DNA from: a virus
DNA: 52,078 nt
Virus record (IMG/VR): IMGVR_UViG_3300021062_000003
Location: 1-52,078 of that record
Reading direction: 5' to 3' (one strand)
Below the pieces are notes generated by a model. That model made no database searches, was not told where the DNA came from, and saw nothing but the letters and a program-made list of their open reading frames with translations. A program made the position numbers and the translations under genes. Shown here piece after piece: positions 2,423 to 49,296 of the stretch. How positions within the stretch are numbered: the stretch's first letter is position 1; each line of letters begins with the position of its first letter.

Positions 2423-2438
2423 GTCCCCAATTGGGGAC
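2423..2438. repeat. 16-bp palindrome, copy 1 (intergenic)
   Basis: This is an exact GTCCCCAATTGGGGAC. It lies after the methyltransferase gene and 22 nt before the ATG at 2461, directly ahead of its AGGAGA ribosome site. Confidence 0.97.
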
Positions 2439-2460
2439 AATATCAGGAGAACGAAATGCC

Positions 2461-2766
2461 ATGACCACCCAAGCACAAAAGCAGTACAGGGCGGACCGCC
2501 TCAGCTTTGCCGTGTCTGATGCTGGCGAAGCGATGGCAGCCGCAAGCGGGCACGGCCTGGAGCTGCGCCGCTGCGGATCGTATCACTACCAGATCAGGCC
2601 AGTCCAAGGCCCGGAATGGATCATCAACCTCTGGCCGTCAACGGGCAAGATGCACTTTGACGACATACCCGAGGCCGGCAAGGCTGGACGGGCGCCGCGG
2701 ATTCAGCCCAAACAGAAATGGACGCTGCTTGATATTGTGCAACTTGTGATAGGAGCAAAGCAATGA
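2461..2766 (+). CDS. Small phage protein, unknown function
   Basis: This 101-residue protein uses the ATG at 2461, supported by AGGAGA 10-15 nt upstream. An in-frame TTG at 2431 lies inside the palindrome and has no ribosome site, so I rejected it. The protein is rich in Arg and Trp, with a central segment HYQIRPVQGPEWIINLWPST that looks like paired beta strands, as in small single-stranded-nucleic-acid-binding folds. I do not recognise the family. The stop overlaps a tiny open frame (2763-2813, 16 codons) that in turn overlaps the next start. Confidence 0.7.
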   Translation: MTTQAQKQYRADRLSFAVSDAGEAMAAASGHGLELRRCGSYHYQIRPVQGPEWIINLWPSTGKMHFDDIPEAGKAGRAPRIQPKQKWTLLDIVQLVIGAKQ

Positions 2767-2809
2767 GAAATCTCGCGTCCGAGCCGTTGATGGGGTGGGA
2801 GGGGGAACG

Positions 2810-3034
2810 ATGAAAACTAAAGGCATCATCGGTCAACGCATCGTCGAGATTCGACAGACGAAGCATCCGGCGGACAAGGAACACAATCGTCCCGCGTGCG
2901 TGGAAGTAACGCACATCGTCCTAGAGAACGGCACCACACTGATTCCCAACGTAATCGAACGTGAGGACTACTACGCGACGGAGTTTCTGGTCATCAAGAA
3001 GCCTCGTGGTGGAAAGGCGGCCCCCCATGCGTGA
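2810..3034 (+). CDS. Small unknown phage protein
   Basis: This 74-residue protein starts at ATG 2810 after a purine-rich GGGAGGGGG ribosome site. The sequence alternates hydrophobic and polar residues (VEVTHIVLENGTTLIPNV), suggesting a small beta-rich fold. It overlaps the next gene by 8 bp, as expected for the tightly packed early operon. The function is not recognised. Confidence 0.65.
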   Translation: MKTKGIIGQRIVEIRQTKHPADKEHNRPACVEVTHIVLENGTTLIPNVIEREDYYATEFLVIKKPRGGKAAPHA

Positions 3035-3404
3035 GAACAACGCTAGGGCGGAACATACGCCTGGACTGCTCCATATCGAAGAGCCGCACGAATCCACCTT
3101 TCAAGACACTATTGCAATCATGGGAGGCGAGACTGGAGAGGCACAGATTGCCGCCGTGTACCCAATGGGTGATGACGACGAGGTTGGTACCAAAGAGTGT
3201 CGGTATCACGCCGAATCTCTCGCCAACGCCCGCCGCCTCGTCACCTGCTGGAACTGCCACGACGATTTGGTCGCGGCGTGCCGAGAGGCGTTGAAGGTCG
3301 TTGACGAATGTTATGAAGCGACCGGCCACATCCACGTAGCCAAAACTTCTAATCAGCGGATGCTCATCGACGCCGCCCTCGCGAAAGCAGGGCGGCAGAC
3401 GTGA
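3027..3404 (+). CDS. Small conserved-type phage protein
   Basis: This 125-residue protein starts at ATG 3027 within the end of the previous gene. It has the layout of a common but unnamed phage protein group: an opening 'GLL.I' strand, a beta-rich middle (IAAVYPMGDDDEV), then the motif ANARRLVTCWNCHDDLVAACR, in which a run of Asn-Ala-Arg-Arg starts a long helix. The helix repeats (DLVAACREALKVVDECYEA) suggest a short coiled region. The function is unknown. The stop overlaps the GTG start of the next gene. Confidence 0.65.
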   Translation: MRENNARAEHTPGLLHIEEPHESTFQDTIAIMGGETGEAQIAAVYPMGDDDEVGTKECRYHAESLANARRLVTCWNCHDDLVAACREALKVVDECYEATGHIHVAKTSNQRMLIDAALAKAGRQT

Positions 3405-3829
3405 CGACGTTCGACCCGAACAAGCCGGTGCAGACGCGCAATGGACGCAAGGTCAAGGTGTTCATGACCGATGCCGGTGGCACACATCCGATCCTGGGAG
3501 CCATCAAATTGGACGCTTCCATGTGGGGGTCGGCGCGATGGGCCGAGAATGGATGCTATTGCTGCGATGGCAGAGAACACTTCTACGACCTCATCAACGT
3601 CCCCGAGCCGGTGGTGAGCTATCAGGTGGTGTGCGCCCGCGTTGGCGAAGGCTCGGTTCCCTATATTGGAATGCCGTACACGTCAATTGAAACAGCGAGG
3701 CTCGATGCAAAGGGGCTGGCTAATCGCGGCCATTATCCCGCCTTCATCCTCAAGCTCACCCGCACCGGCCCCGCCTCCGCGCCGAGCGTGAGCGTGGAGC
3801 GGGTGGAGTTGGAAGGGGGTGTCGCATGA
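3401..3829 (+). CDS. Small phage protein with FDPNKPVQTRNGR motif
   Basis: This 142-residue protein starts at GTG 3401 (GTGA overlap with the previous stop). The N-terminus, TTFDPNKPVQTRNGRKVKVF, matches a widespread phage family of unknown role that opens with 'FDp.KPVqTRdGr' and forms a small beta-barrel-like domain. A CYCCDG Cys cluster near residue 50 could bind metal. The C-terminal half (YQVVCARVGEGSVPYIGMPY) looks like a separate short domain. It is part of the packed early operon. Confidence 0.65.
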   Translation: MTTFDPNKPVQTRNGRKVKVFMTDAGGTHPILGAIKLDASMWGSARWAENGCYCCDGREHFYDLINVPEPVVSYQVVCARVGEGSVPYIGMPYTSIETARLDAKGLANRGHYPAFILKLTRTGPASAPSVSVERVELEGGVA

Positions 3830-4083
3830 ACTACGACACTTGCACGATTGATGAACTGCGCGATGAGTTGGCGCGGGTCAAGATTGAGGCATCGAATCTT
3901 CGAGCTAGCAATCGACAACTGCAAATCGACCGCGATGCCCTGCTTGCGCTTACCTCCAAGATGGAGAGGTCGGAGCGTTTGATCGCGTGGGTGGTTAATG
4001 ATCGGCAGATTGAGTTCATTCAGAGCGGCGTCGTGCGTGATCGCATCAAGCAATGTCTTGTGAAGGACCAGCCCCATGCCTAA
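3826..4083 (+). CDS. Small coiled-coil protein
   Basis: This 85-residue protein starts at an ATG that overlaps the previous stop (ATGA). Residues 8-50 form a clear heptad pattern (TIDELRDELARVKIEASNLR and following), predicting a parallel coiled coil. The rest is helical. No catalytic motif is visible. It overlaps the next gene by 8 bp. Confidence 0.62.
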   Translation: MNYDTCTIDELRDELARVKIEASNLRASNRQLQIDRDALLALTSKMERSERLIAWVVNDRQIEFIQSGVVRDRIKQCLVKDQPHA

Positions 4084-4423
4084 CCCCACGCCCGAGCAAG
4101 TCGTCGTCGCGATGGCGCAGGCGTGCGAGGACGCTTGCAACGCTGGATATTCATTGCCGCAGGATGTGGAGATTCTGGCGGGAGCCAAGCGTCGAAGCGA
4201 TGAACGTGTCGCCCGAATGTACCTCACTCTCGCCCCCGTAGCCGCGCTGATGCGTGCGGCGGAAGCGGTCAGAGACTACCACCTGATGCCAGCGAACGAG
4301 TTTGACGCCAAGTATCCCCACTGGGCGACTCTTGACGAAGGCGACGTACTGATGCTTCAACTCGACCAAGCCCTCGCCGCCCTGCACGCCATCGCGAAGG
4401 AGTCCCCCCATGCCAAACAATGA
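4076..4423 (+). CDS. Small helical phage protein, unknown
   Basis: This 115-residue, mostly alpha-helical protein has four Cys residues in its first half and an Ala-rich C-terminus (QLDQALAALHAIAKESPH). It starts 8 bp inside the previous gene and overlaps the next by 14 bp. I do not recognise a family. Confidence 0.58.
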   Translation: MPNPTPEQVVVAMAQACEDACNAGYSLPQDVEILAGAKRRSDERVARMYLTLAPVAALMRAAEAVRDYHLMPANEFDAKYPHWATLDEGDVLMLQLDQALAALHAIAKESPHAKQ

Positions 4424-6084: not shown

Positions 6085-6963
6085 TTATTCGGCCGTGTCG
6101 AAAATGTGCCGCAGCACCGTGTTCCGGTCGGCTTTGGCCTTGACGATCCACTCCCGAACGTCCTTGAAGCCCTCTGGCGGCCAGCAGAGCCGAACCGACC
6201 GGCAACCCGGCTTCAATGCCTCGACGAGCGCCTTGGCCCCTTCCTGGCCCGCACACCGGCCGAGCTTGTCGGGCTTGTCAAAGTCGCCGATGACGACGGT
6301 TTCCCGATCCCGGCACATGCGGATACAGGGCACGACGCCGCCCCGGCAGTGTGGTCGGCCGATGGCTTGGAATCCGAGATCGAGCAAGGCCGCGCAATCG
6401 CTGGCACCCTCGACGATGACGGCGCCCCGCGTCAGATCATGGTCGTGAGCGTAAAACAAACCTTCCCGACTACCTGTGACGCTGTATTTCTTGCCATGAT
6501 CCGGCCGAAGCCTGACCCCGACGACCTGCCCCGGATTGCCGTCCACCATTTCCAGCCGCATCGGGTATGCCCAGCAGCCGCGGGCATTGCAAGGTGTGTT
6601 GATGGCCTGTAGTTCGGCTTGGGGTGCCCATCCCGTCCGCAGCCGGTGCAGGCTTGGGAACGCAACCCCAAGACGTTGAGCATGTTTCAGCAAATGTTCA
6701 GGCTCGCATTCCTGAAACCATTTCTTTGCCAAAGGCGCGAAGTTCGGTGGCGGCAACGGTGGCGGCGGCTGATATCTCGCCCGCGGAATGCTGGCGTCGA
6801 GAACGTGCATGTAGCCGCCAAACTCGCCGTGCTTGTCTTTCAGCGGCCGATCGGACGGGACGCGCATGCACTTGGCTTCACGGCCATCGTCGGTGTACGT
6901 ACACCATGTATCGTGGTCGCACACGGGGCAATGGTGTGATCGACTGACTCGCTTGTACCTCAT
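6085..6963 (-). CDS. Toprim primase with N-terminal zinc ribbon
   Basis: This 292-residue protein would make RNA primers at the phage replication fork. The N-terminus has a zinc-binding motif (HHCPVCDHDTWC and C32). A Pro-rich linker at 65-74 leads to a helical region. The C-terminal Toprim domain shows the invariant Glu in VIVEGASDC (E185) and the DxD in VVIGDFDKPD (D227/D229). No helicase domain is fused. The SF2 helicase encoded directly upstream may supply unwinding. The start overlaps the helicase stop by 4 bp, implying coupled translation. Confidence 0.83.
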   Translation of the reverse strand: MRYKRVSRSHHCPVCDHDTWCTYTDDGREAKCMRVPSDRPLKDKHGEFGGYMHVLDASIPRARYQPPPPLPPPNFAPLAKKWFQECEPEHLLKHAQRLGVAFPSLHRLRTGWAPQAELQAINTPCNARGCWAYPMRLEMVDGNPGQVVGVRLRPDHGKKYSVTGSREGLFYAHDHDLTRGAVIVEGASDCAALLDLGFQAIGRPHCRGGVVPCIRMCRDRETVVIGDFDKPDKLGRCAGQEGAKALVEALKPGCRSVRLCWPPEGFKDVREWIVKAKADRNTVLRHIFDTAE

Positions 6964-8636
6964 ACTCCAACCGGCTCTTGTTCAGGCGAAAGTTTTTTCC
7001 AGCCATTCTTCGACAGTGCGTTCATATATGCACCCGCCTTTTGGAAGCTCCAACTTGCCGCATCTTCGTACCCCTTGTTCACCAGGAAGCGGGCTTGCTT
7101 GAAGGTGCAAAGGCCATTGGCTCGGCGTTCTTTGAAGCCATCAATGAGCTTGCTCGCCTCGGAGAACGTCAGATTCGCTGGGTTGGGCACGCCAGCATTC
7201 GTCAGAACCTCGATCTGACGATCTGTGGGCTTGCGTCCCTTGTGCCACGCGGCTTCGCGGCCCGGCGTGATGTCCAGCACATCGAAGGGGTTCATGTCCT
7301 GCACGCGGAACTTGGCCTTCGCCTTGATGGCTCGCCGCTTGGCCTCGCTGATATCACGCTCGGCTTGCTCCAGGGCCGCTGCCATGTCAACTTCTTCGTT
7401 GCCCTTCTTCTTGGCGATGTCGCGGGCCTTGGCAACCACCTCATCCGACAGTTTGCCGCCCAAGATGTCTTCCGGCGCAATCAGCTTGTGCCGACCGCTG
7501 TTGCCCACAAAGTCAAGGATCAAGCATGACGGCTTGGCCGACCCCGCAATCCGATTCTTTCGCTGGGCAGGATCGGCAACGTGGTCGATGACGCCGGGCA
7601 GAATTCGCATTCCCCGGCCGGCCATCTGAGCGTACAACGCCCGGCTCTTGGTCGGACGGGCCATGACGACGACTTCAATGCCCGGCGAGTCGAAGCCTTC
7701 CGTGGCGACCCCGACGTTGCAAAGGGTCTGAAATCGGCCGGCCGCATAGTCCGCGAGCATCTGTCGCCGCTCATCCTTGGGTGTCCCGCCGTGGACGATC
7801 CGGGCCGACTGGGGATTGTGGCGGTTGAATATCTCGCTGATCCGCTCGGCTTGCTTCACCGTTCCGGCAAAGACCAATGTGCGACGGTTGCCTGCTATCT
7901 CGATTGTCGGATTGACGACGCCATGAAGATTTGATTCCTCCTCCAGCAGTTCAGCCAGATCGGCGCCGTTCAGGTCGCCCGCCGTCGTTCGCACGTTCGA
8001 GAAGTCCAAGCCATCGACAAACACCTGCCGACTCTTGACCGGGACCAAGTAACCGCCGTGGATCGCGTCGAGGATGCCATATTCGTAGGCGACCGACTGG
8101 TAAATCTGGCCCAACGCTTCTTCATCGCCCCGATCCGGCGTGGCCGTGACGCCCAGGTGCTTGCATTGCGGGTTCGAGGCACAGAAGTAATCCGTGACCT
8201 TGCGATACGTTTCGGCGGTCGAGTGATGGGCCTCATCGGTCCAGAATAGGCAGAAGTCTGACGGACGGAATCGATCCATCCGGCCGCCTCGACTCATGGA
8301 AAGCGTCTGGACCGTGGCGAACACGACGCGGGCCGGATCGGCTCCGAACATGCCCGGAGTTTCGTCTGACCACTGATCGGCCATTTCGATCGCGACATGC
8401 TCGCCCGTGATTTTCTCGATCGCCTTCGCGCCCTGAAAAATCAGTTCTTCTCTGTGGGCGATGCACATGACCCGCTTGCGTGGGTTGGCGTCAAGGTGTC
8501 GTCGGATGATTTCGGCCGCCGTGACGGTCTTGCCGCATCCAGTGGGCAGCGTAACCAGCGTCGATTGCACCGTCTGGAACTGATCCATGACGGCATCGAC
8601 GGCCTCCTGCTGGTAATCACGCAAGCTGATGGTCAA
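6960..8636 (-). CDS. SF2 DEAD/DEAH-box DNA helicase
   Basis: This 558-residue ATP-dependent helicase is of the restriction-enzyme-subunit/RecQ-like superfamily 2 type. Walker A PTGCGKT is at 31-37, the DEAH box at 134-137, motif III-like GVTATP near 162, and motif VI QMAGRGMR at 337-344. The C-terminal ~150 residues form a charged helical tail with a terminal FTFKQARF-like repeat (GLCTFKQARFLVNKG). It is the probable replication or recombination helicase in an operon with primase, RecT-like and exonuclease genes. The stop overlaps the primase start, and the start overlaps the HNH gene stop. Confidence 0.85.
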   Translation of the reverse strand: MTISLRDYQQEAVDAVMDQFQTVQSTLVTLPTGCGKTVTAAEIIRRHLDANPRKRVMCIAHREELIFQGAKAIEKITGEHVAIEMADQWSDETPGMFGADPARVVFATVQTLSMSRGGRMDRFRPSDFCLFWTDEAHHSTAETYRKVTDYFCASNPQCKHLGVTATPDRGDEEALGQIYQSVAYEYGILDAIHGGYLVPVKSRQVFVDGLDFSNVRTTAGDLNGADLAELLEEESNLHGVVNPTIEIAGNRRTLVFAGTVKQAERISEIFNRHNPQSARIVHGGTPKDERRQMLADYAAGRFQTLCNVGVATEGFDSPGIEVVVMARPTKSRALYAQMAGRGMRILPGVIDHVADPAQRKNRIAGSAKPSCLILDFVGNSGRHKLIAPEDILGGKLSDEVVAKARDIAKKKGNEEVDMAAALEQAERDISEAKRRAIKAKAKFRVQDMNPFDVLDITPGREAAWHKGRKPTDRQIEVLTNAGVPNPANLTFSEASKLIDGFKERRANGLCTFKQARFLVNKGYEDAASWSFQKAGAYMNALSKNGWKKLSPEQEPVGV

Positions 8637-9010
8637 AACGGCACTCCTGAGATATCAACGTCTTGAGCCCGCCGCGTGTTGGCCTCGGCACAGTTGCGGG
8701 AGCGGGTTTTCTTCACCAGATGCCGAGGATTGCAGCATGACGGGTAAAGGCACTGGTGGTCGATCTGCCAAAGCTCCGGTATGGTTGCCACGAACACGGC
8801 ATATGTGACCCGATGCACCCACAACGGCTTGCCCTTGATCTTGATTCGTCCATATCCCTTCGCATCCTTCGCGCCCTGCCACTCCCAGCACGGCCCCAAC
8901 TTGTGCCCCCGGTCCACCTGCCTGATCTTCGACATCATCCGCAGAAGATCAGGCAGGTCCAAGTGGAGCCGCAGCCGCTTGGCGGGTTTGATGCAGCGGG
9001 CACGGCTCAT
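8633..9010 (-). CDS. HNH endonuclease
   Basis: This 125-residue protein starts at the ATG that overlaps the stop of the upstream gene (ATGA). The HNH core is clear: CWEWQGAKDAKGYGRI at 41-56, HRVTY with H66, IDH at 83-85, and CNPRHL with N94 and H97. Cys pairs around it suggest a bound zinc. The family includes free-standing homing nucleases and phage packaging or recombination nucleases. Being embedded in the replication operon with coupled starts, it may be an operon member rather than a selfish insertion. Confidence 0.83.
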   Translation of the reverse strand: MSRARCIKPAKRLRLHLDLPDLLRMMSKIRQVDRGHKLGPCWEWQGAKDAKGYGRIKIKGKPLWVHRVTYAVFVATIPELWQIDHQCLYPSCCNPRHLVKKTRSRNCAEANTRRAQDVDISGVPF

Positions 9011-9786
9011 TTCTTCTCGGGCTGTAGTTCTGCGATCTTCTTGGGCAGATAGCCCGTGTTGCGACACTCCTTGCATCCCTCGCCCTTGCAGGCTTTGCAG
9101 ACGACGTGAGGCATGCCGAACTTCATTTCATGGATGATCTGATGGAACAAGCTGGCGACGTTCTGGACGTTGATATACGCCGCCGCCCGCTTGTTCTTCG
9201 CAAAGAACTCGGCAACCTCATCACGCAGGCCGCCGACTTGGCGCGAGAACGATAGGTATTGCGGCCGGGTGGCGAAAATCTTGCCCATGCCATCCGCCTT
9301 CACCGGGTTCTTTTCGCCGTCGAGGATGACGGGCTCGGGCTTGTCGGGATCAGGCTCATCAGCCAATACCTTGTTGGCCGCCTCTGACAGCACCGCCGCC
9401 GTCAGCAACACGTTGCCAGTGTCGGGGTCCGTCGCCATCTTGACGGCCTCGCGAAGCACTTGCCGCCGCTTGGGCTTGGGCACTGTCTGGATGACACGGG
9501 CCTGCGCCTCGTTGGCAATGCCAACGTCCCCAATTGGGGACACTTCTTCGGCCACCTTTGACGCGTCGATCAGGCGGTACGCCTGCGATCGTCCCCATCC
9601 AAAGTGGTACTTGCAGAACTCGTCGAAGCTGTCGAACTCATCCCGGTACAGCTTGGACTTTTGAAGCTCCACCAGCGCCTTTCCCGCTTCAACGAAGCTG
9701 AGATTGTTGGCGTGGACAATCGCCATCAGCTTCTCTTTTTTGTTCTGCTCGGACTTGCTCAATACGATTTCGGTTGTGGTAGTCAT
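9007..9786 (-). CDS. HTH-domain phage protein with C-terminal zinc knuckle
   Basis: This 259-residue protein has an N-terminal helical region, then SFDEFCKYHFGWGRSQAYRL, which matches a phage and plasmid family with a helix-turn-helix-like Trp-Gly-Arg-Ser segment followed by a 'PIG...NEaQAR' motif. Residues 83-87 are Ser-Pro-Ile-Gly-Asp, encoded by palindrome copy 2, and NEAQAR follows at 92-97. A long helical middle leads to a DnaJ-type zinc motif, CKACKGEGCKEC, near residue 235. DNA binding is likely; a ParB-like or replication-accessory role is possible but unproven. Confidence 0.66.
   Translation of the reverse strand: MTTTTEIVLSKSEQNKKEKLMAIVHANNLSFVEAGKALVELQKSKLYRDEFDSFDEFCKYHFGWGRSQAYRLIDASKVAEEVSPIGDVGIANEAQARVIQTVPKPKRRQVLREAVKMATDPDTGNVLLTAAVLSEAANKVLADEPDPDKPEPVILDGEKNPVKADGMGKIFATRPQYLSFSRQVGGLRDEVAEFFAKNKRAAAYINVQNVASLFHQIIHEMKFGMPHVVCKACKGEGCKECRNTGYLPKKIAELQPEKK
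9526..9541. repeat. 16-bp palindrome, copy 2 (inside gene)
   Basis: This is an exact GTCCCCAATTGGGGAC within the HTH-domain gene at 9007-9786, encoding residues SPIGD at 83-87. In this gene the pentapeptide falls on a motif the wider family also shows. Confidence 0.97.
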
Positions 9787-12778: not shown

Positions 12779-12794
12779 GTCCCCAATTGGGGAC
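12779..12794. repeat. 16-bp palindrome, copy 3 (divergent promoter region)
   Basis: This is an exact GTCCCCAATTGGGGAC. On the minus strand it starts about 12 nt after a TATAGT -10 element, so it covers roughly +5 to +20 of the leftward transcript and ends 19 nt before the ATG at 12759. This placement is typical for an operator. Confidence 0.97.
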
Positions 12795-12805: not shown

Positions 12806-12833
12806 ACTATATCGTCAGTCTGGAGGCGTGCAA
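12806..12833 (-). promoter_or_regulatory. Leftward promoter of the replication/recombination operon
   Basis: On the minus strand TTGCAC (12833-12828) and TATAGT (12811-12806) are 16 bp apart. Transcription would start near 12799, just before palindrome copy 3. The 140-bp gap between the divergent genes at 12759 and 12900 is also locally AT-rich. Confidence 0.66.
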
Positions 12834-12864
12834 CAAGAAATCACAACTTTTTATAAAAAATCGT

Positions 12865-12891
12865 TTGCACATTCGCCGACCATCGGATACT
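12865..12891 (+). promoter_or_regulatory. Possible rightward promoter of the RHH gene
   Basis: TTGCAC (12865-12870) and GATACT (12886-12891) are 15 bp apart, a short spacer. The start point would fall near the ATG at 12900, which has no ribosome site, so the transcript could be leaderless. The -35 hexamer is identical to that of the opposing promoter. Confidence 0.4.
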
Positions 12892-12899
12892 CTCTCGGC

Positions 12900-13052
12900 A
12901 TGTCCAAGGAAGCCGAGAAGTTCAAGTCGCTGCCGGTGAAGCCTGCCACGCACAAGAAGATCAAGGCGATACACGCCAAAACTCAGCTTCCGCTGTACGC
13001 CATCGTGGATCAGGCGATCGATGCATTCATCAAACAAGGAGCCAAACCGTGA
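12900..13052 (+). CDS. Ribbon-helix-helix DNA-binding protein
   Basis: This is a 50-residue protein. LPVKPATHKKIKAIHAKTQL followed by PLYAIVDQAIDAFIKQG has the short strand, helix, turn, helix plan of Arc/CopG-type regulators. Such dimers bind palindromic operators through the beta ribbon. It is the first gene right of the divergent promoter region and lies next to palindrome copy 3, so it is a candidate regulator of its own operon and of the replication operon. No Shine-Dalgarno sequence is visible before the ATG. Its stop overlaps the GTG of the next gene. Confidence 0.7.
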   Translation: MSKEAEKFKSLPVKPATHKKIKAIHAKTQLPLYAIVDQAIDAFIKQGAKP

Positions 13053-13288
13053 TCGTTCCAACATATGTCGAGTCCAAGAAGCAAGAGCAAGAACGTACCA
13101 AGAACTTCGTGTACCACGCCCCAAAGCCGGGTCAGGCTGAGCGGTACACGCACATTCGAGACACTGCCGGCGCCTTTGCCAAGATGGTCAACGAGCAGTG
13201 CCCGCCAAGTCGCGAGCTATCCGTGGGAATTACGCTCTTGGAGCAAGCCGTGTTTTGGTTCAACGCGGCAATCGCCAGAAACGAATGA
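13049..13288 (+). CDS. Acb2/Tad1-like small protein (candidate anti-defence sponge)
   Basis: This 79-residue protein has its GTG at 13049 overlapping the previous stop, with AAGGAG seven bases upstream. The pattern FVYHAPKPGQAERYTHIRDT, then CPPSRELSVGITLLEQAVFW and NAAIARNE, fits a widespread small phage family. From memory, that family belongs to, or lies close to, the Acb2/Tad1 helical-hairpin group (DUF7681-like). Characterised members bind cyclic nucleotides or cyclic ADP-ribose signals and blunt CBASS and Thoeris defence. The helical-hairpin and sequence pattern are seen; the anti-defence role is inferred and no ligand site can be proven by eye. Confidence 0.6.
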   Translation: MIVPTYVESKKQEQERTKNFVYHAPKPGQAERYTHIRDTAGAFAKMVNEQCPPSRELSVGITLLEQAVFWFNAAIARNE

Positions 13289-16409: not shown

Positions 16410-16425
16410 GTCCCCAATTGGGGAC
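16410..16425. repeat. 16-bp palindrome, copy 4 (upstream of GroES-like gene)
   Basis: This is an exact GTCCCCAATTGGGGAC between the stop at 16407 and the ribosome site GGAAG. It ends 16 nt before the ATG at 16442. Confidence 0.97.
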
Positions 16426-22868: not shown

Positions 22869-25800
22869 TCACGCGGCGGGCTGCCGCTTTTCGTTCCGCT
22901 GGCGAAGGGCCGATCCGATGGCCCTTGCATAATCCGCCAGCCATTCCCTGTGCAGGGATAATACCCTGCTTTTCTCATCCGGTGCAAGTCCCTTGAGATA
23001 TGCCGGAATATCGGCCTTTTCCAGCTTGCCCAAGGGAGCCTTGTCCTGCATGGACGACTTCAAGCCCTTGATGACCTTCGCCAGTTCGGCCGGATCGTCG
23101 CCGATCGCCGCCAGGATCAGCTTGGCGGCCTCATCGGGCTGCTCGCGACTGATGGCCTTCGCCACACCGTCATGCAGCGGATTGATCTGGAAGTCCGTGC
23201 CGCTTTGGTTGTCTTTCCCCTGATCCTTGATCCACTTGCCGACGCGGGCTCGGGTCTGCTGGTAGCCCCGCAGCCGATCAGACTTCGCACGGTCGGCGTT
23301 GTCGATCAATCCCTTGACGGCCGGCGTGTTCCGCTTCTGCATGTCCGTCACGGAGTCGACCAGGTTGAACTTGCCGTATCGGCCCTTGCCTGTGACGGGT
23401 CCGGTCAAGGCATCGAACAGGTCCGCGATATACGACACCTTGGGCATCATCGCCACAGCCAGCTTTTCGGCGCTCGATCCGTTGCTCCAGTGGAAGGCGT
23501 CAACGAACCTCTGGGCCGATCCCATGACGCCAGCTTCCCACAGGGCCGACACTGCCATTTCCCAGTAGGCTTCGTCTCGCTTTTTGATTTCCTCGCCCTT
23601 GAACAGACGACGGAGTATCATCGCCGCCGCTCCGGCGCCCATCATGCCAACCAACAGCTTCGCCAGACCCTCGGCCGCATCGGCCATTCGCCTTGGGTCT
23701 TTGCTCTCGATCGCGGCTCGGGCCTCGTTGACGGCGCGGGCCGCTGACTTGGTGGTGCCCACGAAATAGCTGTTGTACGCGAAGATGAAGTTGAGGACCG
23801 GCACATTCTGGATCAAGGCGCGTCGATGCGGGTCCTCGGCCGTGTACTGAGTCACCTTGACGAGATTCTGAACGATCTTGTTCGCCGTCGCCTGAGATAT
23901 CACGCCCTTGCGAGCGTCGACAATCTCCGAACTCGTCAGGCGAAGCTCTTTGGCGATCTGTACCGACTTCATCGGCAGGCCGAACTTACGCCACTGATCG
24001 ACCATCGCACGACCCGCGTTGCCGATGGCGAGATTGTTGAACTGGTTCACCCAATGCGATCCCACGCCACGGGCGGCCACGTCGCGAGCGATCCGGGCGA
24101 TGTCCTCTGGAACATGGCCCGATCGAATCGTCCATTCCATGACGGATCGGTTGACGGCCCCCATTTCCGCGAGCGTTTGGGCTGAGGCCCGAGGATGCGA
24201 GATCGTTTCCATCAACCCCTTGGCGAGATTGACGAATCCGGTGTACCGCGGGCCTTGCACGGCGACTTGCGGAATGTTGGGGATCACGGCCGCCGATGTC
24301 TGTTGGCTGCCGATCAGGCCGTCAATGACACGGCCGGTACGCTTCCACCATGATCGCGGTTCGCCGCCGAGCCGGCCATACGGCCGCCCGTTCCATACAC
24401 GAATCACGTCATCGAAAGCGGCTTGCGATCCCTTGGCTCGGCCGTGGCGGGCTCGCAGTTCGTCCAGCAGCGTGTCGGGCTGATCCTTCGTGACTTGACC
24501 GAACTTTTCGATGAAGTAAATCCGCTGGGCCATGCGGCGGCCGGCCGACATGATCGACAGGTACGGATCGCTCTCCAGAATCGGCATCTGCGTCTTGCCG
24601 ACCGTGACGTGGCTGGCGAAATTCTTGATCTTGCGGTAATCCTCGATCGCGCCGACTTCCCGCACTGACGACGGATCGAACATTTCTTTCAGCGTGGCCT
24701 TTGCCTGCTGCGGAGTCGTGCCGTTCTCGTTGGCAACCATCGTCACAATGGCGTCATACAGCGGGCCGCTTTGAATGTGCATCGCATCCCAGGCGTCCGG
24801 CGTCAGTTCGCGGAGCATCCGGCCGCCCTTGGCCTTGGCGAACGGCGTGCCGTCGCTTCGCTTGACGCCCTTGGCGATCGCCTCATCGCCCGTCACGTCC
24901 ATCATCAGTTGGTAGGTGTCAAGCCATTTCTGGATGCGCGGGTTCGGGGCCGTCAACCGGCCGGCCGGAGTATCTTCGAGCAACCGCTGCTGATTCGAGT
25001 AGGTCGTGCCGCGTTCCACCTTGTCCAGCCATGCCCGATCGTCGGCCTTCAACCCCTTGTAGGCGTCGTGGGCCTGATTGGCGAACTTGCCGACCAGTGT
25101 TGCCGTCTTGCTGCTGGCGTCATCGAGAAAGCTGGCGACCAGTTTGCCCGCCCGCGTGTCGCGGATTCGCTCGGCCATTTCGCCGGTGAAGGCATTGGCC
25201 GCGATGTACGCTTGCTTCCCGGCCGCCTTGACGACATCGGTGATAGCACTGATGTCCACGAATCCGCCGCGGGCTCCAGGGTACAGGCCGCGTGTCCGAA
25301 GTTGACCCTCGACATCCTTGCGTGCCAACGCTTTCGTCTCTTTGGAGAGATTCGATTCCCCGGTGAACGGCAGAGCGTTTTGCTCGCCGGTGGCCGCGTC
25401 TACGGTCGGATTGCCGAACAGGTCGGGCTTTACCGCCGACGTGTCCCCAATTGGGGACAGCTTCGACGCCGAATCACTCCCTCCATCACTTGCCCCGGCG
25501 ACTCTCTCGCCTGAATCATTCTCATCGTCTGAAAGATCATCGACTTGTACTTCGCCACCTTGCGACCCTCCCGCCGCTTCTCCGCTTTGCGACTGAGGTA
25601 CTGTTGGACTGTCATCGTTGAGTTGGAATCCATCTTTGAACTTCCGCTTCTCCCCCATGACCGGCAGGCCGTAATCGTCGATGTCCTCAAGCTCTCCTTC
25701 AACCATTTTATCCGGTGCAGCCTGTCGCCGCGAGCCTTCATCCATCGGCACGGGCGGCAAGCCGTCAGTCGGGATAATCACGCCATCGGCCAGGACTTTC

Positions 25801-28100: not shown

Positions 28101-28591
28101 TTGCAGATGATTCGCTGGAGCGTGGCCGAATCGGCTTGGTGAGCGTTGTAGAACTTGATCGCCGTCACGGCTTCCAAGGTGCCCGCGTCCATGTTCGGGT
28201 ACGTGAAGTCGCCGTACAGCTTCATCGTGCCGTTGCCTTGCGTGGCAATGGCGTCTGCCCCCAAGAACAGCGGCACGCCGGCCCGCATCGGAATCTGGTT
28301 CACATCGCTGGAGTCGGCTTCGTCGGTCGTTTCCAAGATCAGGATGCCGTCTTGGCTGGACACGAACGCCGCGAACCCGATGGTCGTGACTTGGTGCGAA
28401 TCGTCTTTGTCAAAGACCTTCGTGGTCGTGTCGGCGAGAACGGTCTGTTTACCGCAGTCGATCTTGTCCGATCCCATCGTCAGTTCGAGCGGATCGGTTG
28501 ATGCGTTGCCCGCCAATACGCCCTGCCAAAGCTCATGGTCGCCGTCGTTGACGCTGACCGAGGCCAAGATGCTGATTACGGTGTTCGCCAT
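28097..28591 (-). CDS. Small beta-rich structural protein
   Basis: This 164-residue protein alternates hydrophobic strands and acidic loops (IGFAAFVSSQDGILILETTD) and carries no enzyme motif. It lies between the Gln-rich internal protein and the giant ejected protein, overlapping the latter by 4 bp. A virion or adaptor role fits the position. The family is not recognised. Confidence 0.6.
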   Translation of the reverse strand: MANTVISILASVSVNDGDHELWQGVLAGNASTDPLELTMGSDKIDCGKQTVLADTTTKVFDKDDSHQVTTIGFAAFVSSQDGILILETTDEADSSDVNQIPMRAGVPLFLGADAIATQGNGTMKLYGDFTYPNMDAGTLEAVTAIKFYNAHQADSATLQRIICK

Positions 28592-29805
28592 TACTGCCGC
28601 GCTCCTTGCGTCTGTTGGGCTGCCATCGCCCGGATCATTTGCAACAACCGCTGCCGTGCGGATTGGTCGCCAGCCTGTGCCGCCGCCACAAGCTGCGGAT
28701 TCATCATAGCAACGGCTTGGGCCGCTTGCAGATGGACCGGGCTTGCGGCCTGCGGAGCCGGTGGCTGAGCTTGCGGCCCATTGCCGGCCGCCGTCGCCTG
28801 AATGTACTGATCGGCGTTCACAGGAGCCGGAGCCGTGTCCCCAATTGGGGACGGCTGGCTCGCCGCAGGCGGCTGGCCTTGCTGCGGAGCCGGCGGACCC
28901 ATCGGGCCGCCTTGCTGCTGGGGCTGGTAGACGCCGATCAATCCTTGGGCCGCCTGCTGTGCCGCTTGCTCGGCCTGCATCAGTTGCGGGTTGGGCTGGG
29001 CCAACGCCTGCTCATACTCAGCCTCAACTTGTTGCAAGGCGCGTTGCATGGCGTCGGGGTCAAACTCGTAAGCGGGATTGCTCTGGATGGCCCGGACCTT
29101 CATTTCAAACCGCTTGCCGAGCATTTCCCGCCGAGTCTGATCCATCTTGATGACCCGCTCCAGGTTGGAGTCGGCCATTTCCTTGCGGACCATGCCGGCT
29201 TGCACCTGATTGGGGTCGATTTGGTATTGCTGCTGCTGGGCGAACTTCTCTTGCTGCAAGTCAAGTTGCTTCTGCATCCTGATGTCGTCGATAGCCTTGT
29301 CCACGTCGCTTCCGTGGATAAGCTGCAACCGCAGCACTTTTTCGGTGAACTGCTTTTCGCTGATGCGGCCCGCCTCAAGCTCGTTGATGGATTGCTCAAC
29401 CGACGAACGGAGCCGCGTCTGACGGGCTGATTCCTTGGCAAGATCGGCCGCCGTGATCTGTCGTTGCTCGTTGAGCAAGTCGGCCGAGTCCTGCATGCGG
29501 TTCTCTCGCCGCACGTCGAGTCCGAACTGCCGTTCATCCATCTCGAACCGTCGATCGTTGTTCTGTTGGGTTCGGTCAAACTGCCGCTGATCGAACTCGA
29601 AACGACGGTCCCGGTCGGCGCGGGTGAGGGTGTCTTGCTCACGCTGGTATGCGTCATTGTCGAGCGTTCGATTCCATTGACGCTCCTGAGCTTGCCGCTG
29701 GGCGAGCATCTGCATGATCGCCATTTGCTGCTGGATACGCGCGCGGTCTCGCTCTTCGGCCATGCCGTATCCGCCCAAATAGCCACTGAGGAAGTCTTGG
29801 GGCAT
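28591..29805 (-). CDS. Gln-rich internal virion protein
   Basis: This 404-residue protein is dominated by Gln, Arg and Ala. Residues 20-130 are a long charged helix with an internal repeat, RRFEFDQRQFDRTQQ then RRFEMDERQFGLDVR. The C-terminal half is Pro/Gln/Ala-rich and probably disordered, and carries SPIGD (319-323) from palindrome copy 6. The layout suits an inner-core or ejection protein placed next to the giant virion protein. No enzyme motif is seen. Confidence 0.62.
   Translation of the reverse strand: MPQDFLSGYLGGYGMAEERDRARIQQQMAIMQMLAQRQAQERQWNRTLDNDAYQREQDTLTRADRDRRFEFDQRQFDRTQQNNDRRFEMDERQFGLDVRRENRMQDSADLLNEQRQITAADLAKESARQTRLRSSVEQSINELEAGRISEKQFTEKVLRLQLIHGSDVDKAIDDIRMQKQLDLQQEKFAQQQQYQIDPNQVQAGMVRKEMADSNLERVIKMDQTRREMLGKRFEMKVRAIQSNPAYEFDPDAMQRALQQVEAEYEQALAQPNPQLMQAEQAAQQAAQGLIGVYQPQQQGGPMGPPAPQQGQPPAASQPSPIGDTAPAPVNADQYIQATAAGNGPQAQPPAPQAASPVHLQAAQAVAMMNPQLVAAAQAGDQSARQRLLQMIRAMAAQQTQGARQ
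28837..28852. repeat. 16-bp palindrome, copy 6 (inside gene)
   Basis: This is an exact GTCCCCAATTGGGGAC encoding SPIGD in the disordered Pro/Gln-rich half of the internal virion protein gene at 28591-29805. Confidence 0.97.
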
Positions 29806-37663: not shown

Positions 37664-37679
37664 GTCCCCAATTGGGGAA
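37664..37679. repeat. 16-bp palindrome, copy 7 (one mismatch)
   Basis: This copy reads GTCCCCAATTGGGGAA, with the last base changed. It lies between the major capsid gene and the decoration gene, 47 nt upstream of the ATG at 37616 on the minus strand. Confidence 0.9.
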
Positions 37680-37683
37680 ACGG

Positions 37684-38793
37684 TTACGAAATCGGCGTGT
37701 GAATGACGAATCCGAACTCGCGGGGATTCTCGCCCAGCAGGTTGAAATACTCGTCAACTTTCGTGACGACGGTGGTGTGCTGGCCGGGATCGGTCATCGG
37801 CTCGGATTCGATCAGGACACGGCCGCCCTTGCCCATCATCACGGTGGGCCGGAACTTCTTCTTGTTGATCCCGTAGATCGGGTCGTAGGTCGCCGTGTCG
37901 AGCTTCTTCACCCAGGTCATCGGGACTTGACGGAAGCGAATCTTGCCGCCTTGGGGGTCCAGGTCCGAACGGAACTCGTCATAGCGAGCCCGCATGTACC
38001 GCTCGATGGCCCGGAAGGGGGTGTTGCCCATGCACAATTCGTACTGGGCGTTGTCCTTACCGTTGAAATCCTTGGCCCCAGCGGTTCCGCCAGGAATCGT
38101 GATCGGCGCGAACGACTGGAGGCGGAAGCAATCGGCGAGGGTCTGGACGAACGCCTCGTTGATCGTGCCGTTGTACGTCGCGCACAAATTACGATACTTA
38201 TCGTAAGTTGACCCGTTTATGCCGGCTCGGGTCGTGCTGGTCGTGCCGTCGCCGTAGCGGACGGTGTAACCTTGGAAGTCCGGGTCGGCGTCATCGAATC
38301 CGACCGGACCCATGCAAATCCAGTACGGGAAGCCGAGGGGGCCGTAAGGATCGTCGGCGTAGTCGGGCGTGTCCCAACCCTTCGACTCCTTTTCGTCCAT
38401 CATTTCCTCGTAGCACTTGATGCGGCGGGCATCCAGTTCGTCGGCCATGACCTGTCCAGGGTCGGCGCCCTGCATGGTCATCGCCTCGAACACGTCCATG
38501 CCCCACGAATTGCTCAGATGCACCCAGCCGATTCGCTGGGGCTTCATCAGTTGCTTCACGTTGGTCGTGGAACGCTGGAAGGGCAGACGCCACTCGACGT
38601 TGCCGTTGCCTTCCAGAACGATCATGCGCTCGATCGATGGGCCGGAGCCCTTCTTGCGGAGCTTGCTGTTGAAGAACATATCACAGAACACATGGTTCTG
38701 GAGGTTCCGTACAACTTCAAACTCTCGCGTTGGAGAGTCGGGCCGGACAGCGTTGATGATTCCGGTCAGATCACTGATTTCGATTCCGTTCAT
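37684..38793 (-). CDS. Major capsid protein
   Basis: This 369-residue protein lies between scaffold and decoration genes, the standard place. An N-terminal arm with RNLQNHVFCDMFFNSKLRKK is followed by an E-loop-like segment (ERMIVLEGNGNVEWRLPFQR) and a long helix-rich centre (VMADELDARRIKCYEEMMDE). The C-terminus has strands RFRPTVMMGKGGRVLIESEP and EFGFVIHTPI. This is consistent with an HK97-type fold. A strong GGAG site precedes the ATG. Confidence 0.8.
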   Translation of the reverse strand: MNGIEISDLTGIINAVRPDSPTREFEVVRNLQNHVFCDMFFNSKLRKKGSGPSIERMIVLEGNGNVEWRLPFQRSTTNVKQLMKPQRIGWVHLSNSWGMDVFEAMTMQGADPGQVMADELDARRIKCYEEMMDEKESKGWDTPDYADDPYGPLGFPYWICMGPVGFDDADPDFQGYTVRYGDGTTSTTRAGINGSTYDKYRNLCATYNGTINEAFVQTLADCFRLQSFAPITIPGGTAGAKDFNGKDNAQYELCMGNTPFRAIERYMRARYDEFRSDLDPQGGKIRFRQVPMTWVKKLDTATYDPIYGINKKKFRPTVMMGKGGRVLIESEPMTDPGQHTTVVTKVDEYFNLLGENPREFGFVIHTPIS

Positions 38794-38853: not shown

Positions 38854-39939
38854 TTACTGTCCGATGATTCCCTTTTTTGCGAGAATCTTGTTGATCTTCA
38901 CAGCAGCGGCCGAGTTTGGCTCTCCGCTTTCCGGCTGCGGGATTGGACCGGCTCCGCTTCCCGGCCGGTTGCTCCTGAGCTTCGCGGCGGCGGCGGCCTT
39001 TTCGGCGGCGGCCTTTTCGGATTGCTTGCTCACGAAGTCCTTGTTCTTGATTTTGTGGGCGGCCTCGATCGCCTGCTGGACCGTGATCGGCTTTCCGCTT
39101 TGTGCCGCGCCTTTCAGCATGGCATTGGCGAACGAAGCGACATTCTTGCGTGCTTCAAGCTGGCCCTTGGACAATCCATGTCGCGGGCCTTTGCCGAACA
39201 CTTCATCGGCTCCGATGCCGTCAATGATCCCATCCACCATCTGATCGGCGAGATACTGGGTGAGGCTTTGAACTTGCTCCATCGCCTGACGGTGCTGATC
39301 GGCCATCGCCTTGATCTGAGTCGCCATCTGCCGCATCGGCTTGACGACGGGCTCGGACAACTCAGGGAAGTCTTTTTCAAGCTGAGCGATCTTGGCGTTG
39401 TCGATGCCAAAGTCGCTGAGATCGGGCTGATTCGCGTTGGCAGCCTGTTGGGCCGCAGTAGCCGCTTGAGCGTCCGCCTGTGCCTTTTGTGCGGCGGCGG
39501 CTGGATCGGGAGCCCCTTCATCCTTCGCGCCAGCGGCGGCCAGTTGCTCGAGCGCCGCAAGATCGGGCTCGGTCGAGGCGGCCGACTTTGCCATCAGTTT
39601 GTCGAGAAGCGACTTGGGCAGCTTCGCAATCTCGGCCACGTCAACGCCCGTCTCTTTCGCCAGATCGGCGTACTGAGCATTGTCGTCCGGCTTGGTGGCG
39701 GCATCGACGACCGGAGCGGCTTCGTCCGCTTTGTCCCCAATTGGGGACGCGGGAGCTTCTGTTTTCTTCTTGAAGATGTCATTGATGCGTGAAGCTGATC
39801 CGGCGTTGGGATCAGCGGGGAGCGCAGAAGAACCGCCACCGACGGGGTTATCGACGGTGGCGGTGTTCGTTTCGGCGGCATTTCCACCCGTCGCCGATCC
39901 ACCCAAGCCTGTGCTTGCACCAGCCTGTAACTGCGTCAT
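38854..39939 (-). CDS. Capsid scaffolding protein
   Basis: This 361-residue protein starts at ATG 39939 after GGAAGGAG. It is Ala/Asp/Gln/Lys-rich, largely helical and probably extended. It has coiled-coil segments (LEKDFPELSEPVVKPMRQMA), a Thr/Gly-rich N-terminus and a short basic helix at the C-terminus (AAAVKINKILAKKGIIGQ) of the kind that contacts coat protein. SPIGD at 65-69 comes from palindrome copy 8 in a linker. The position between portal and capsid genes supports the role. Confidence 0.76.
   Translation of the reverse strand: MTQLQAGASTGLGGSATGGNAAETNTATVDNPVGGGSSALPADPNAGSASRINDIFKKKTEAPASPIGDKADEAAPVVDAATKPDDNAQYADLAKETGVDVAEIAKLPKSLLDKLMAKSAASTEPDLAALEQLAAAGAKDEGAPDPAAAAQKAQADAQAATAAQQAANANQPDLSDFGIDNAKIAQLEKDFPELSEPVVKPMRQMATQIKAMADQHRQAMEQVQSLTQYLADQMVDGIIDGIGADEVFGKGPRHGLSKGQLEARKNVASFANAMLKGAAQSGKPITVQQAIEAAHKIKNKDFVSKQSEKAAAEKAAAAAKLRSNRPGSGAGPIPQPESGEPNSAAAVKINKILAKKGIIGQ
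39733..39748. repeat. 16-bp palindrome, copy 8 (inside gene)
   Basis: This is an exact GTCCCCAATTGGGGAC encoding SPIGD at residues 65-69 of the scaffold, in a low-complexity linker. Confidence 0.97.
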
Positions 39940-39952
39940 CCGTGACTCCTTC

Positions 39953-39970
39953 CAACGCATCCTTGCGTTG
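39953..39970 (-). promoter_or_regulatory. Hairpin with AGGA loop upstream of the scaffold gene
   Basis: CAACGCA and TGCGTTG form a 7-bp stem. On the minus strand the 4-nt loop is AGGA, a ribosome-site sequence. A second site, GGAAGGAG, follows before the ATG at 39939. It shares a 14-bp core with the element before the portal gene. Confidence 0.55.
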
Positions 39971-40008
39971 AGCAATCGCCGCTACCCTACATCTTGTGGG
40001 TCATGCGG

Positions 40009-44458: not shown

Positions 44459-44852
44459 CGCTCACCTTGTCTTGCGAAGCGCCGACGATGTGTTCCTGTC
44501 GCGGCTTGCCGAGGATGCGGTCCATGACGACTTGGCTGGCCTCCATGCGAATGTCGAGCGGAACAAGCTCCTCACGCATGACGGCAACCATCAGCGACAA
44601 GGCATACTCGGCATCATCGCCGTAGACAGTCTGGACCGACTTCTTGAAACGGACCACTTCACCCTTGGAGTCGCGGCGGCATTTCTTGAGCCGCTGCTGG
44701 CTGATGACGATTGAATCCTCGAACGTCTGGCAGCCGTTGAGTATCGGCGATCGGTCTTTTCCGCGAAGCGTGAACGCTTCCGGGCCGCCTTCATCTTCGT
44801 CCCCAATTGGGGACGCGAGATCGTCATTGTATCCATCATCTTCGGCGGTCAT
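44340..44852 (-). CDS. Candidate terminase small subunit
   Basis: This 170-residue protein sits directly upstream of the large terminase. An acidic N-terminus holds SPIGD at 14-18 (palindrome copy 9). The middle is helical, with LVPLDIRMEASQVVMDRILG then KPRQEHIV, a pattern shared by small-terminase or DUF5681-like proteins. The C-terminus is disordered and overlaps the large terminase gene by 119 bp. No classical N-terminal HTH is obvious, so the call depends on position and helix pattern. Confidence 0.6.
   Translation of the reverse strand: MTAEDDGYNDDLASPIGDEDEGGPEAFTLRGKDRSPILNGCQTFEDSIVISQQRLKKCRRDSKGEVVRFKKSVQTVYGDDAEYALSLMVAVMREELVPLDIRMEASQVVMDRILGKPRQEHIVGASQDKVSDVLSEQTRNRVEQMGEIPGLAPRPVALPGDGNSNPNGRQ
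44799..44814. repeat. 16-bp palindrome, copy 9 (inside gene)
   Basis: This is an exact GTCCCCAATTGGGGAC encoding SPIGD in the acidic N-terminal linker of the small terminase candidate. Confidence 0.97.
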
Positions 44853-47198: not shown

Positions 47199-47214
47199 GT
47201 CCCCAATTGGGGAC
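47199..47214. repeat. 16-bp palindrome, copy 10 (intergenic)
   Basis: This is an exact GTCCCCAATTGGGGAC. It abuts the T-run of a leftward terminator at 47215 and lies 171 nt upstream of the ATG at 47027. Confidence 0.97.
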
Positions 47215-47257
47215 AAAAAGATAGCTGGCCCGGTCATCTGATACATAACCGGGCCAG
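47215..47257 (-). terminator. Rho-independent terminator (leftward)
   Basis: CTGGCCCGGT/ACCGGGCCAG is a perfect 10-bp stem with a 13-nt loop. On the minus strand CTATCTTTTTG follows. It would stop transcripts from the gene at 47513-47728 before the secreted fibronectin-like gene. Confidence 0.82.
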
Positions 47258-47817: not shown

Positions 47818-47854
47818 AAAAGCCGGACGGCTCACGGAAAATGAAGCCGTCCGG
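47818..47854 (-). terminator. Rho-independent terminator (leftward)
   Basis: CCGGACGGCT/AGCCGTCCGG is a perfect 10-bp stem with a 12-nt loop, followed on the minus strand by CTTTTCT. It lies just upstream of the three-way-junction element. Confidence 0.72.
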
Positions 47855-48164: not shown

Positions 48165-48194
48165 CTTGACAAACAACCGGGTGTCAAGCACAAT
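48165..48194 (+). promoter_or_regulatory. Candidate promoter with an operator-like dyad
   Basis: TTGACA (48166-48171) and CACAAT (48189-48194) are 17 bp apart. The -35 lies inside an inverted repeat, CTTGACA (48165-48171)/TGTCAAG (48182-48188). The first 12 bases (CTTGACAAACAA) recur at 5821. A gene starts at 48204. Confidence 0.5.
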
Positions 48195-48203
48195 GGAACC
48201 GGA

Positions 48204-48530: not shown

Positions 48531-48553
48531 ACGCGGTTTTCGCCCGTTCGAGT

Positions 48554-48569
48554 GTCCCCAATTGGGGAC
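48554..48569. repeat. 16-bp palindrome, copy 11 (upstream of tandem-HTH gene)
   Basis: This is an exact GTCCCCAATTGGGGAC, 19 nt before the ATG at 48589 and just ahead of its AAAGGTGA ribosome site. This placement could allow autoregulation if the gene product binds the palindrome. Confidence 0.97.
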
Positions 48570-48571
48570 GA

Positions 48572-48588
48572 AAGGTGATAGCAGACCA
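48572..48588. repeat. 17-bp direct repeat, copy A
   Basis: AAGGTGATAGCAGACCA forms the leader of the tandem-HTH gene and is repeated exactly at 51946-51962 inside the ATPase gene. It is long enough to be notable, but a chance match cannot be excluded. Confidence 0.9.
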
Positions 48589-48987
48589 ATGGCGCGTGGC
48601 AAGGCTGATCGTGGTGTGTTATCCCGCTTGGCGTGGGTAAAAACGCGGAATCGTGCCATTGCGGCCCGTGTGAAAGGGGGATACAGCATCACGCAAGTAG
48701 CCGCACGCTATCAACTGAGGCGTGAACAGGTCCGGGAGATCGTCCGGGCCGAGCTTGGGTATCTGCCGCCAGCCAGGAAGGGGAAAGGCTCTACTGCGGC
48801 CGTAATAGCGGGCTTGCAGGCCGGCAAATCGGTCGCAACCGTGGCGCGGGAAGGGTCGCTGGGACGGGATGCCGTCCGCCGAATCCGTGCCGAATGCATC
48901 GCCGCCGGCGTAATCCTATGCTATCACTGCACTTGCACGCCAAAGCACGTGTGCAATACAGCCGGAAACGTCAATCCATCCGCATAA
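48589..48987 (+). CDS. Tandem helix-turn-helix DNA-binding protein
   Basis: This 132-residue protein uses ATG 48589 after AAAGGTGA. Two HTH-like units are visible: IAARVKGGYSITQVAARYQL (then RREQVREIVRAE) and VIAGLQAGKSVATVAREGSL (then GRDAVRRIRAEC). Each has the helix-Gly-turn-helix pattern of resolvase/transposase-type HTHs. The C-terminus has a Cys/His cluster (CYHCTCTPKHVC) that may bind zinc. With palindrome copy 11 in its own leader, it is the best candidate regulator of the palindrome system, though binding is unproven. Confidence 0.72.
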   Translation: MARGKADRGVLSRLAWVKTRNRAIAARVKGGYSITQVAARYQLRREQVREIVRAELGYLPPARKGKGSTAAVIAGLQAGKSVATVAREGSLGRDAVRRIRAECIAAGVILCYHCTCTPKHVCNTAGNVNPSA

Positions 48988-48996
48988 ACGGATGAT

Positions 48997-49020
48997 ATCC
49001 ATTGATCCGGATGAACGGAT
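48997..49020. repeat. 24-bp imperfect palindrome downstream of the tandem-HTH gene
   Basis: The centre ATCCGGAT is flanked by ATCC and GGAT at equal four-base spacing; 20 of 24 positions are symmetric. There is no T-run, so it is not a typical terminator. It may be a second operator type. Confidence 0.7.
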
Positions 49021-49280
49021 TGAGGGCACGGGCCGGCCCTGTGGGCTGTTGAGTGGTGAGGGGGTATGTCGACCAGGGTATGAGGGCAGAGAGGGATTCT
49101 GGAGGCAATGCGGGGCTTGGATGAGGGCGAGGCGCTGCTGATGCGAAAACGCGATGGCGTGATCTGCTGCGGCTCCGATGTACCGATGTATGATACATTG
49201 GTACTTTTTGCCCACATCCGCGTTTTCGAACCCAAAAACGACAATCGGCCCGACTGGAGCCGGGGCCGATTGCAGGAGTT

Positions 49281-49296
49281 GTCGCCAATTGGGGAC
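49281..49296. repeat. 16-bp palindrome, copy 12 (one mismatch)
   Basis: GTCGCCAATTGGGGAC differs from the consensus at one base. It lies just downstream of the minus-strand secreted-protein gene (stop at 49301). Confidence 0.9.

Follow-up and report, generated by a model that had tools for sequence, protein, structure and literature searches.

Twelve dispersed palindromes in a virus without a detectable ParA as candidate loading sites of a ParT-like, CTP-independent clamp

The ParT protein of the Streptomyces plasmid SCP2 belongs to a recently described plasmid-segregation system and is a ParB-like clamp that has no CTPase domain and acts independently of cytidine triphosphate (CTP) (PNAS 2025, PMC12260392). 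Chromatin immunoprecipitation sequencing and biolayer interferometry show that its binding site is an inverted repeat of 18 bp within the coding sequence of ParT itself; it binds duplex DNA, diffuses along it without a nucleoside triphosphate and reportedly needs no more than a single site (PMC12260392). ParT homologues with a ParA partner occur almost only in Actinomycetota, and homologues without parA have also been reported (PMC12260392). Here we analyze the virus record IMGVR_UViG_3300021062_000003, taken whole (52,078 nt; hereafter the window), in which the 16-bp palindrome GTCCCCAATTGGGGAC is present in twelve dispersed copies, one of them inside a gene (9007-9786) for a ParT-like protein. 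Taken as a whole, the twelve palindromes are probably best explained as parS-type loading sites of the phage's own ParT-like, CTP-independent ParB-like clamp.

Three further systems invite comparison. Plasmid RK2 carries about 12 OB sites. Its KorB protein, a ParB-like sliding clamp and CTPase, uses these 16-bp operators as proximal or distal silencers with a reach of more than 1 kb (PMC11790492). As in the KorB/OB system, the sites in the window occur throughout a mobile genome, both at gene starts and in other places; in contrast to KorB, which is a CTPase and has a different operator and the partner KorA, the protein encoded in the window lacks a CTPase domain. The stoperators of mycobacteriophage L5 (cluster A) are many short copies of a repressor site distributed across the genome, at gene starts and inside operons; cluster A stoperators are short, asymmetric and bound by a small helix-turn-helix (HTH) repressor. 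The window shares with L5 the many copies over a phage genome, but its site is symmetric, strand polarity is inapplicable and no link to a repressor was found. Nor are L5 stoperators known to lie, as a family trait, in the gene of the protein that binds them, unlike the site in parT. The phage gene bstA overlaps its own short DNA element, aba, which is specific to its own protein, and the matching pairs vary from phage to phage; aba, 63 bp long and containing direct repeats, gives self-immunity to the defence protein (PMC8585504). An element specific to its own protein inside the coding sequence is thus common to BstA/aba and the locus described here, whereas aba is not described as palindromic.

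All twelve positions given in an earlier note on this DNA were recovered, as ten exact and two one-mismatch copies of GTCCCCAATTGGGGAC (Table 1). That note also held the array to be far above chance, and a shuffled control agrees: dinucleotide shuffles (n = 100) contain a mean of 0.22 matches at ≤3 mismatches, and 12 was reached in 0/100. Beyond the 12 copies, no sequence in the window lies within ≤3 mismatches of GTCCCCAATTGGGGAC, and the only high-scoring palindromes (score ≥8) in the 52 kb are the ten exact copies. The position directly outside the 16-mer is a purine, reading outward, in 23 of the 24 half-flanks. The conserved site is therefore really about 18 bp long.

The distribution of the 16-mer in other genomes points to its binder. 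A scan for the exact 16-mer gave 97 loci (18 viral and 79 genome), and in 21 of these the 16-mer lies inside a homologue of 9007-9786, at identical codons directly after the HTH. The hosts of these 21 loci are phages and bacteria of several phyla, including some genomes of ~70% G+C, in which the codons CCA and ATT of the in-gene site are expected to be rare. Another family with the SPIGD motif, the xanthine-dehydrogenase-like flavin adenine dinucleotide (FAD) domain, accounts for only two of the 97 loci (L052 and L084). The retention of the site despite ~70% G+C, together with the rarity of the FAD-domain family, suggests that the DNA and not the peptide is conserved. No ParT relative was found in 13 genomes with the 16-mer outside the ParT family, and the copies there look like chance matches.

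Pfam and PHROGs give no useful name for the family of 9007-9786, a search of the PDB by sequence returned chance matches only, and the similarity to NCBIfam borfam_49 (a Borrelia plasmid partition family) is weak and below cut-off. The AlphaFold model has a predicted local distance difference test score (pLDDT) >90 over most of residues 11-145, and Foldseek matches its N-terminal part to the DNA-binding domains of ParB, Noc and SopB with probability up to 1.0, though with weak E-values (0.05-0.3). The match is thus to the DNA-binding part of canonical ParB/KorB CTP clamps; their N-terminal ParB/CTPase domain gave no Pfam match in the 9007-9786 protein, and no CTPase domain is seen in the model.

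Among annotated plasmids the family includes SCP2.04c of the Streptomyces coelicolor plasmid SCP2, which adjoins parA. A tblastn comparison of 9007-9786 with SCP2.04c gives 33% identity over the DNA-binding region (E = 1e-7), and homology is also supported by the family profile and alignment. Because of the adjacent parA and the in-gene repeat, we infer that SCP2.04c is the ParT of PMC12260392. The only 18-bp perfect palindrome in SCP2.04c, TGTCTCCAATTGGAGACA, lies at SPIGD codons homologous to window site 9526; it agrees with the published parS in position, length and symmetry and is presumably that site. It differs from the window site YGTCCCCAATTGGGGACR by one base pair in each half-site. 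The guess of a parS-like site in the earlier note was therefore apt, while its remark that the sequence matched neither parS-like sites nor stoperators does not stand. The window locus thus shares with SCP2 a homologous protein, a ParB-type DNA-binding domain, the lack of a CTPase domain and a palindromic site of ~18 bp within the parT gene at homologous codons. Unlike SCP2, with its parS inside parT and its ParA partner encoded beside it, the window phage carries its 12 sites dispersed and encodes no detectable ParA. On these sequence comparisons, the twelve palindromes are very probably cognate sites of the 9007-9786 protein. Its binding to them, its sliding and its downstream role are proposed here.

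We also sampled the family without regard to the palindrome, using a profile of the HTH region only, from which the site was excluded. The members found in this way belong to Desulfobacterota, Actinomycetota, Planctomycetota and viral contigs, and often carry a perfect in-gene palindrome of differing sequence. In many family members a perfect palindrome of 16-24 bp stands just after the HTH, with variants such as GTCAACACGTGTTGAC, TTGACAACAATTGTTGTCAA, TTTGCTGACAATTGTCAGCAAA, TTGTCCCCCATGGGGGACAA, TTTGACGCCAATTGGCGTCAAA, TGTCAACCATGGTTGACA and CCGTTTCCACAATTGTGGAAACGG, among others. A strict palindrome score was passed just after the HTH by 13 of the 34 non-redundant members, whereas of 223 control windows taken from those genes 4 passed (Fisher 6e-10); synonymous recoding of the blind-sample genes gives a palindrome in 2%. 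Among the 189 pairs of 21 distinct sites, 179 are complementary, and some positions show four pair types; these sites were chosen as palindromic, and it is the variety of pair types that is informative, not the percentage. A second, independent test of compensated change is provided by the pattern GTCNCCAATTGGNGAC inside viral parT genes, where 18 of 23 cases have a complementary free pair (P = 1.3e-7). The peptides at the in-gene site vary (SPIGD, STRVD, ATTVA, LTIVS, TTIVV, SNWTQ). Compensated pair changes combined with a freely changing peptide imply that it is the DNA that is selected. In one locus (L053, G005) the ParT-like domain is fused behind a protein resembling phage Gp37/Gp68 (DUF5131), with the same in-gene site.

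The same pairs bear on the possibility that the palindrome is a terminator or acts at the RNA level, with hairpins forming close to ribosome sites. It could fold into a GTCCCC/GGGGAC stem, and several copies stand directly before start codons. However, the two central pairs, which cannot form in an RNA loop, are complementary in 20 of the 21 distinct sites, no T-run follows the palindrome, five copies lie inside genes and the SCP2 relative is a duplex-DNA site (PMC12260392). The hairpin with an AAUU loop put forward earlier is accordingly disfavoured, and a function as RNA or terminator is exceedingly unlikely.

A mobile or repetitive palindrome, of the repetitive extragenic palindromic (REP) type or resembling a miniature inverted-repeat transposable element (MITE), could in principle have spread without any binder, and Moranbacteria and similar bins do carry the 16-mer at the centre of a repeated palindrome of greater length, AGGGACTAA..TTAGTCCCT. 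The window copies, however, share no flank past the 18-bp site and have no target duplication, the intragenic copies are all in frame, and one of them is anciently established in the parT gene that several phyla share. Such an origin can hardly account for the array. The multi-copy matches in Moranbacteria-type bins represent a different, longer palindrome and were set aside. A longer palindrome, AGGGACTAAGTCCCCAATTGGGGACTTAGTCCCT, has many copies in Moranbacteria and several freshwater bins (L019, L024, L025, L028, L036, L050, L066, L085 and others), some of them inside genes, for example in an ATP-synthase-like open reading frame (ORF).

Seven of the 12 copies in the window are wholly intergenic, compared to 7% of window 16-mers (binomial P = 5e-6). 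Four copies (2423, 12779, 16410 and 48554) have a start codon 16-22 nt beyond the site and one of these lies in a divergent gap, as previously described; a search for sigma-70-like promoters in that gap gave no match. At site 37664 an ATG 16 nt away is out of frame, and the in-frame start is ~47 nt off. The five genic copies share one reading frame and encode SPIGD in 5/5, mostly in acidic, Pro/Ala-rich or otherwise linker-like stretches of protein. Neighbouring sites are 0.7-9 kb apart around the circular genome, and no significant regularity of spacing was detected around the window.

Intergenic placement of 7/12 sites would also suit a conventional phage repressor acting through operators or stoperators, in the manner of cluster A mycobacteriophages, and the proteins proposed earlier as binders, the tandem-HTH protein (48589) and a ribbon-helix-helix (RHH) protein (12900; gene 12828-13052), both have a site nearby: one lies 19 nt before the tandem-HTH gene and another in the divergent gap beside the RHH gene. 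Neither gene, however, is tied to the site across species, whereas the 16-mer occurs at one position in 21 homologues of 9007-9786, and the in-gene location is explained only by ParT. A conventional repressor is therefore quite unlikely, and the proposal of these two proteins as binders is unsupported; the ParT-like protein, which the earlier note did not mention, is the better candidate.

Dispersed copies recur outside the window. Four other viral records (G1416, G1421, G1426 and G1427) have extra copies of their site, identical to their own parT copy in three, where the chance expectation of extra copies over all these viral records is ~0.002. ParT is all that G1416 (44.7 kb) has in common with the window; this record has a parT-internal GTCTCCAATTGGAGAC with three identical distant copies, two of which are followed by a start codon after 16 and 17 nt, and one of the two precedes a gene resembling a small terminase subunit. 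G1421 and G1427 have two copies each, the extra one identical to the parT copy. Megablast with bases 1-24000 of the window, as well as searches with its terminase, structural proteins and ParT, found no close phage relative.

Two further roles may be considered for the sites. In the first, a clamp would coat the phage genome and help to load the neighbouring helicase, or shield or condense replicating DNA. The ParT-like gene lies in a replication/recombination block with primase-like, superfamily 2 (SF2) helicase, RecT and RecE genes; three other phages have a helicase of this SF2 type immediately behind parT, a ParT-like gene precedes transposition genes in Mu- or IstB-like elements, and the sites are distributed over the whole circle. 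The support from gene order is indirect, and we consider replication or copy protection possible, though rather unlikely, as the main function. In the single genome G187, a 4.46-kb element present as three near-identical copies (L137-L139) carries a ParT-like gene directly upstream of its transposition genes, as do Mu-like or IstB-like elements at L154/L318 and L325. Does a sliding clamp in a transposable element serve target immunity?

In the second, the array would be a multi-site centromere for classical segregation of a plasmid-like prophage, with a ParA supplied by the host or by a plasmid. ParT relatives adjoin ParA in SCP2, Actinomadura, Spirosoma and Streptomyces phage Gilgamesh, and the weak borfam_49 similarity points the same way. 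Against this, no ParA-type Walker motif was found in six frames of the window, the neighbours of the parT-like gene are helicase and recombination genes, and twelve spread sites are unneeded, as SCP2 ParT is reported to work from one (PMC12260392). With no ParA detectable, ParA-driven segregation is unlikely unless a host ParA is used, and an array that works with a borrowed ParA is likewise improbable. In phage Gilgamesh (L202; gp103-gp104), the phage ParA is followed by an unannotated distant ParT relative without a strong palindrome there.

We return to the proposal that the palindromes are loading sites of a ParT-like clamp. A dimer would recognize the 16-18 bp palindrome with one subunit per half-site, close into a clamp and slide nucleotide-free onto the adjoining DNA, by analogy with SCP2 ParT. 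The founding site would be the copy in parT, as in SCP2 and many relatives. The eleven further copies, inserted or kept by selection at gene starts and in protein linkers that tolerate them, would be loading points from which clamps could reach the whole circular genome. The role we favour would be either KorB-like genome-wide transcriptional control, including that of the parT operon through site 12779, or coating of the replicating genome. The sites in the divergent gap of the parT operon, at the start of the packaging operon and before the GroES-like and HTH genes fit KorB-like control. Regulation as the main role of the array is a reasonable but tentative assignment.

Several observations weigh against this proposal. 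The proposed binder has low identity to its relatives (27-44%). Several subfamilies and the viral members L100 and L099 have no palindrome; L098 and again L099, two helicase relatives, lack such a palindrome. The two copies in G1426 differ at one base, and in G1438, an exception to concordance, the parT palindrome is TTTGTCCACCATGGTGGACAAA and yet TGTCTCCAATTGGAGACA occurs elsewhere. The records with dispersed arrays came from scans with site patterns and show recurrence, not frequency among phages. Most relatives have one site per genome, and the window array of 12 is the largest and unusual. The divergent gap gave no promoter match, and it is the position of the sites that speaks for a possible regulatory role. 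Moreover, bases before ribosome sites and disordered linkers may be the least harmful places in a compact genome, and sites tolerated at harmless places mean that location alone is no proof of regulation.

Table 1 Positions of the twelve candidate parS-type sites, the ParT-like gene and the neighbouring helicase in the window
Feature	Position	Strand	Location and remarks
parS-type site, exact	2423..2438		Intergenic, 22 nt before ATG 2461 (+); 22-bp perfect palindrome
parS-type site, exact	9526..9541		Inside ParT-like gene, codons homologous to SCP2 parS; reads SPIGD
parS-type site, exact	12779..12794		68-bp divergent gap at head of operon holding ParT-like gene; 19 nt before minus-strand ATG at 12759, plus-strand gene across the gap
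parS-type site, exact	16410..16425		Intergenic, 16 nt before GroES-like gene
parS-type site, exact	25443..25458		Inside 1743-aa structural-region gene; linker, reads SPIGD
parS-type site, exact	28837..28852		Inside gene 28591-29805; Pro/Ala-rich linker, reads SPIGD
parS-type site, C16A mismatch	37664..37679		Gap after gene 37684-38793
parS-type site, exact	39733..39748		Inside gene 38854-39975; linker, reads SPIGD
parS-type site, exact	44799..44814		38 nt into 44852-44340, first gene of packaging and structural operon
parS-type site, exact	47199..47214		Intergenic, 171 bp before gene 47027-46653 (-)
parS-type site, exact	48554..48569		19 nt before tandem-HTH gene
parS-type site, C4G mismatch	49281..49296		Intergenic, directly past stop codon of minus ORF 49301-49672
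ParT-like gene, 259 aa	9007..9786	-	ParB-type HTH domain, without CTPase domain; proposed binder of the 12 sites
SF2 (ResIII/DEAD) helicase	6960..8636	-	Downstream of ParT-like gene; order recurs in other parT phages

The two ends of the window share an exact repeat of 127 bp (1-127 and 51952-52078), the size of an assembly k-mer, and this repeat makes a closed circle of 51,951 bp the probable form of the record. A gene for a MoxR-like AAA ATPase (Walker A near 51445) seems to span the circle junction. The operon beginning beside site 12779 includes a gene (13049-13288, plus strand) for an Acb2/Tad1-like hairpin-domain protein (Pfam E = 4e-18), a predicted sponge against Thoeris and the cyclic oligonucleotide-based antiphage signalling system (CBASS). 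At 1078-2379 (plus strand) an ArdC-type N-terminal domain is fused to a DNA methyltransferase-like part; the product is likely an anti-restriction protein. Directly after site 47199, in a large gap without a clear gene, lies an 11-bp perfect inverted repeat, GCTGGCCCGGT..ACCGGGCCAGC (47220-47257).

New here are the 12-site array in a phage without ParA, the family-wide compensated palindrome within the gene, and the spread of the family over phages, transposable elements and phyla other than those given in PMC12260392. ParT and its in-gene site are thereby extended from one plasmid to phages, Mu-like transposable elements, plasmids and the chromosomes of several phyla. The palindrome just after the HTH codons is a simple DNA signature from which each member's binding site can be predicted without experiment, and as the site varies between members and co-varies, protein–DNA specificity becomes readable from sequence. 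More speculatively, phages may have turned the nucleotide-free ParT clamp, whose loading site would co-evolve within its gene, into a ParA-independent, genome-wide system in which dispersed sites would let it cover the genome and govern transcription or replication; such a CTP-free analogue of KorB would have arisen separately in unrelated phages. The twelve-site phage provides a setting for asking what a nucleotide-free clamp does without ParA, and it suggests that a tool of segregation has been taken over by a virus for coating its entire genome or controlling it.

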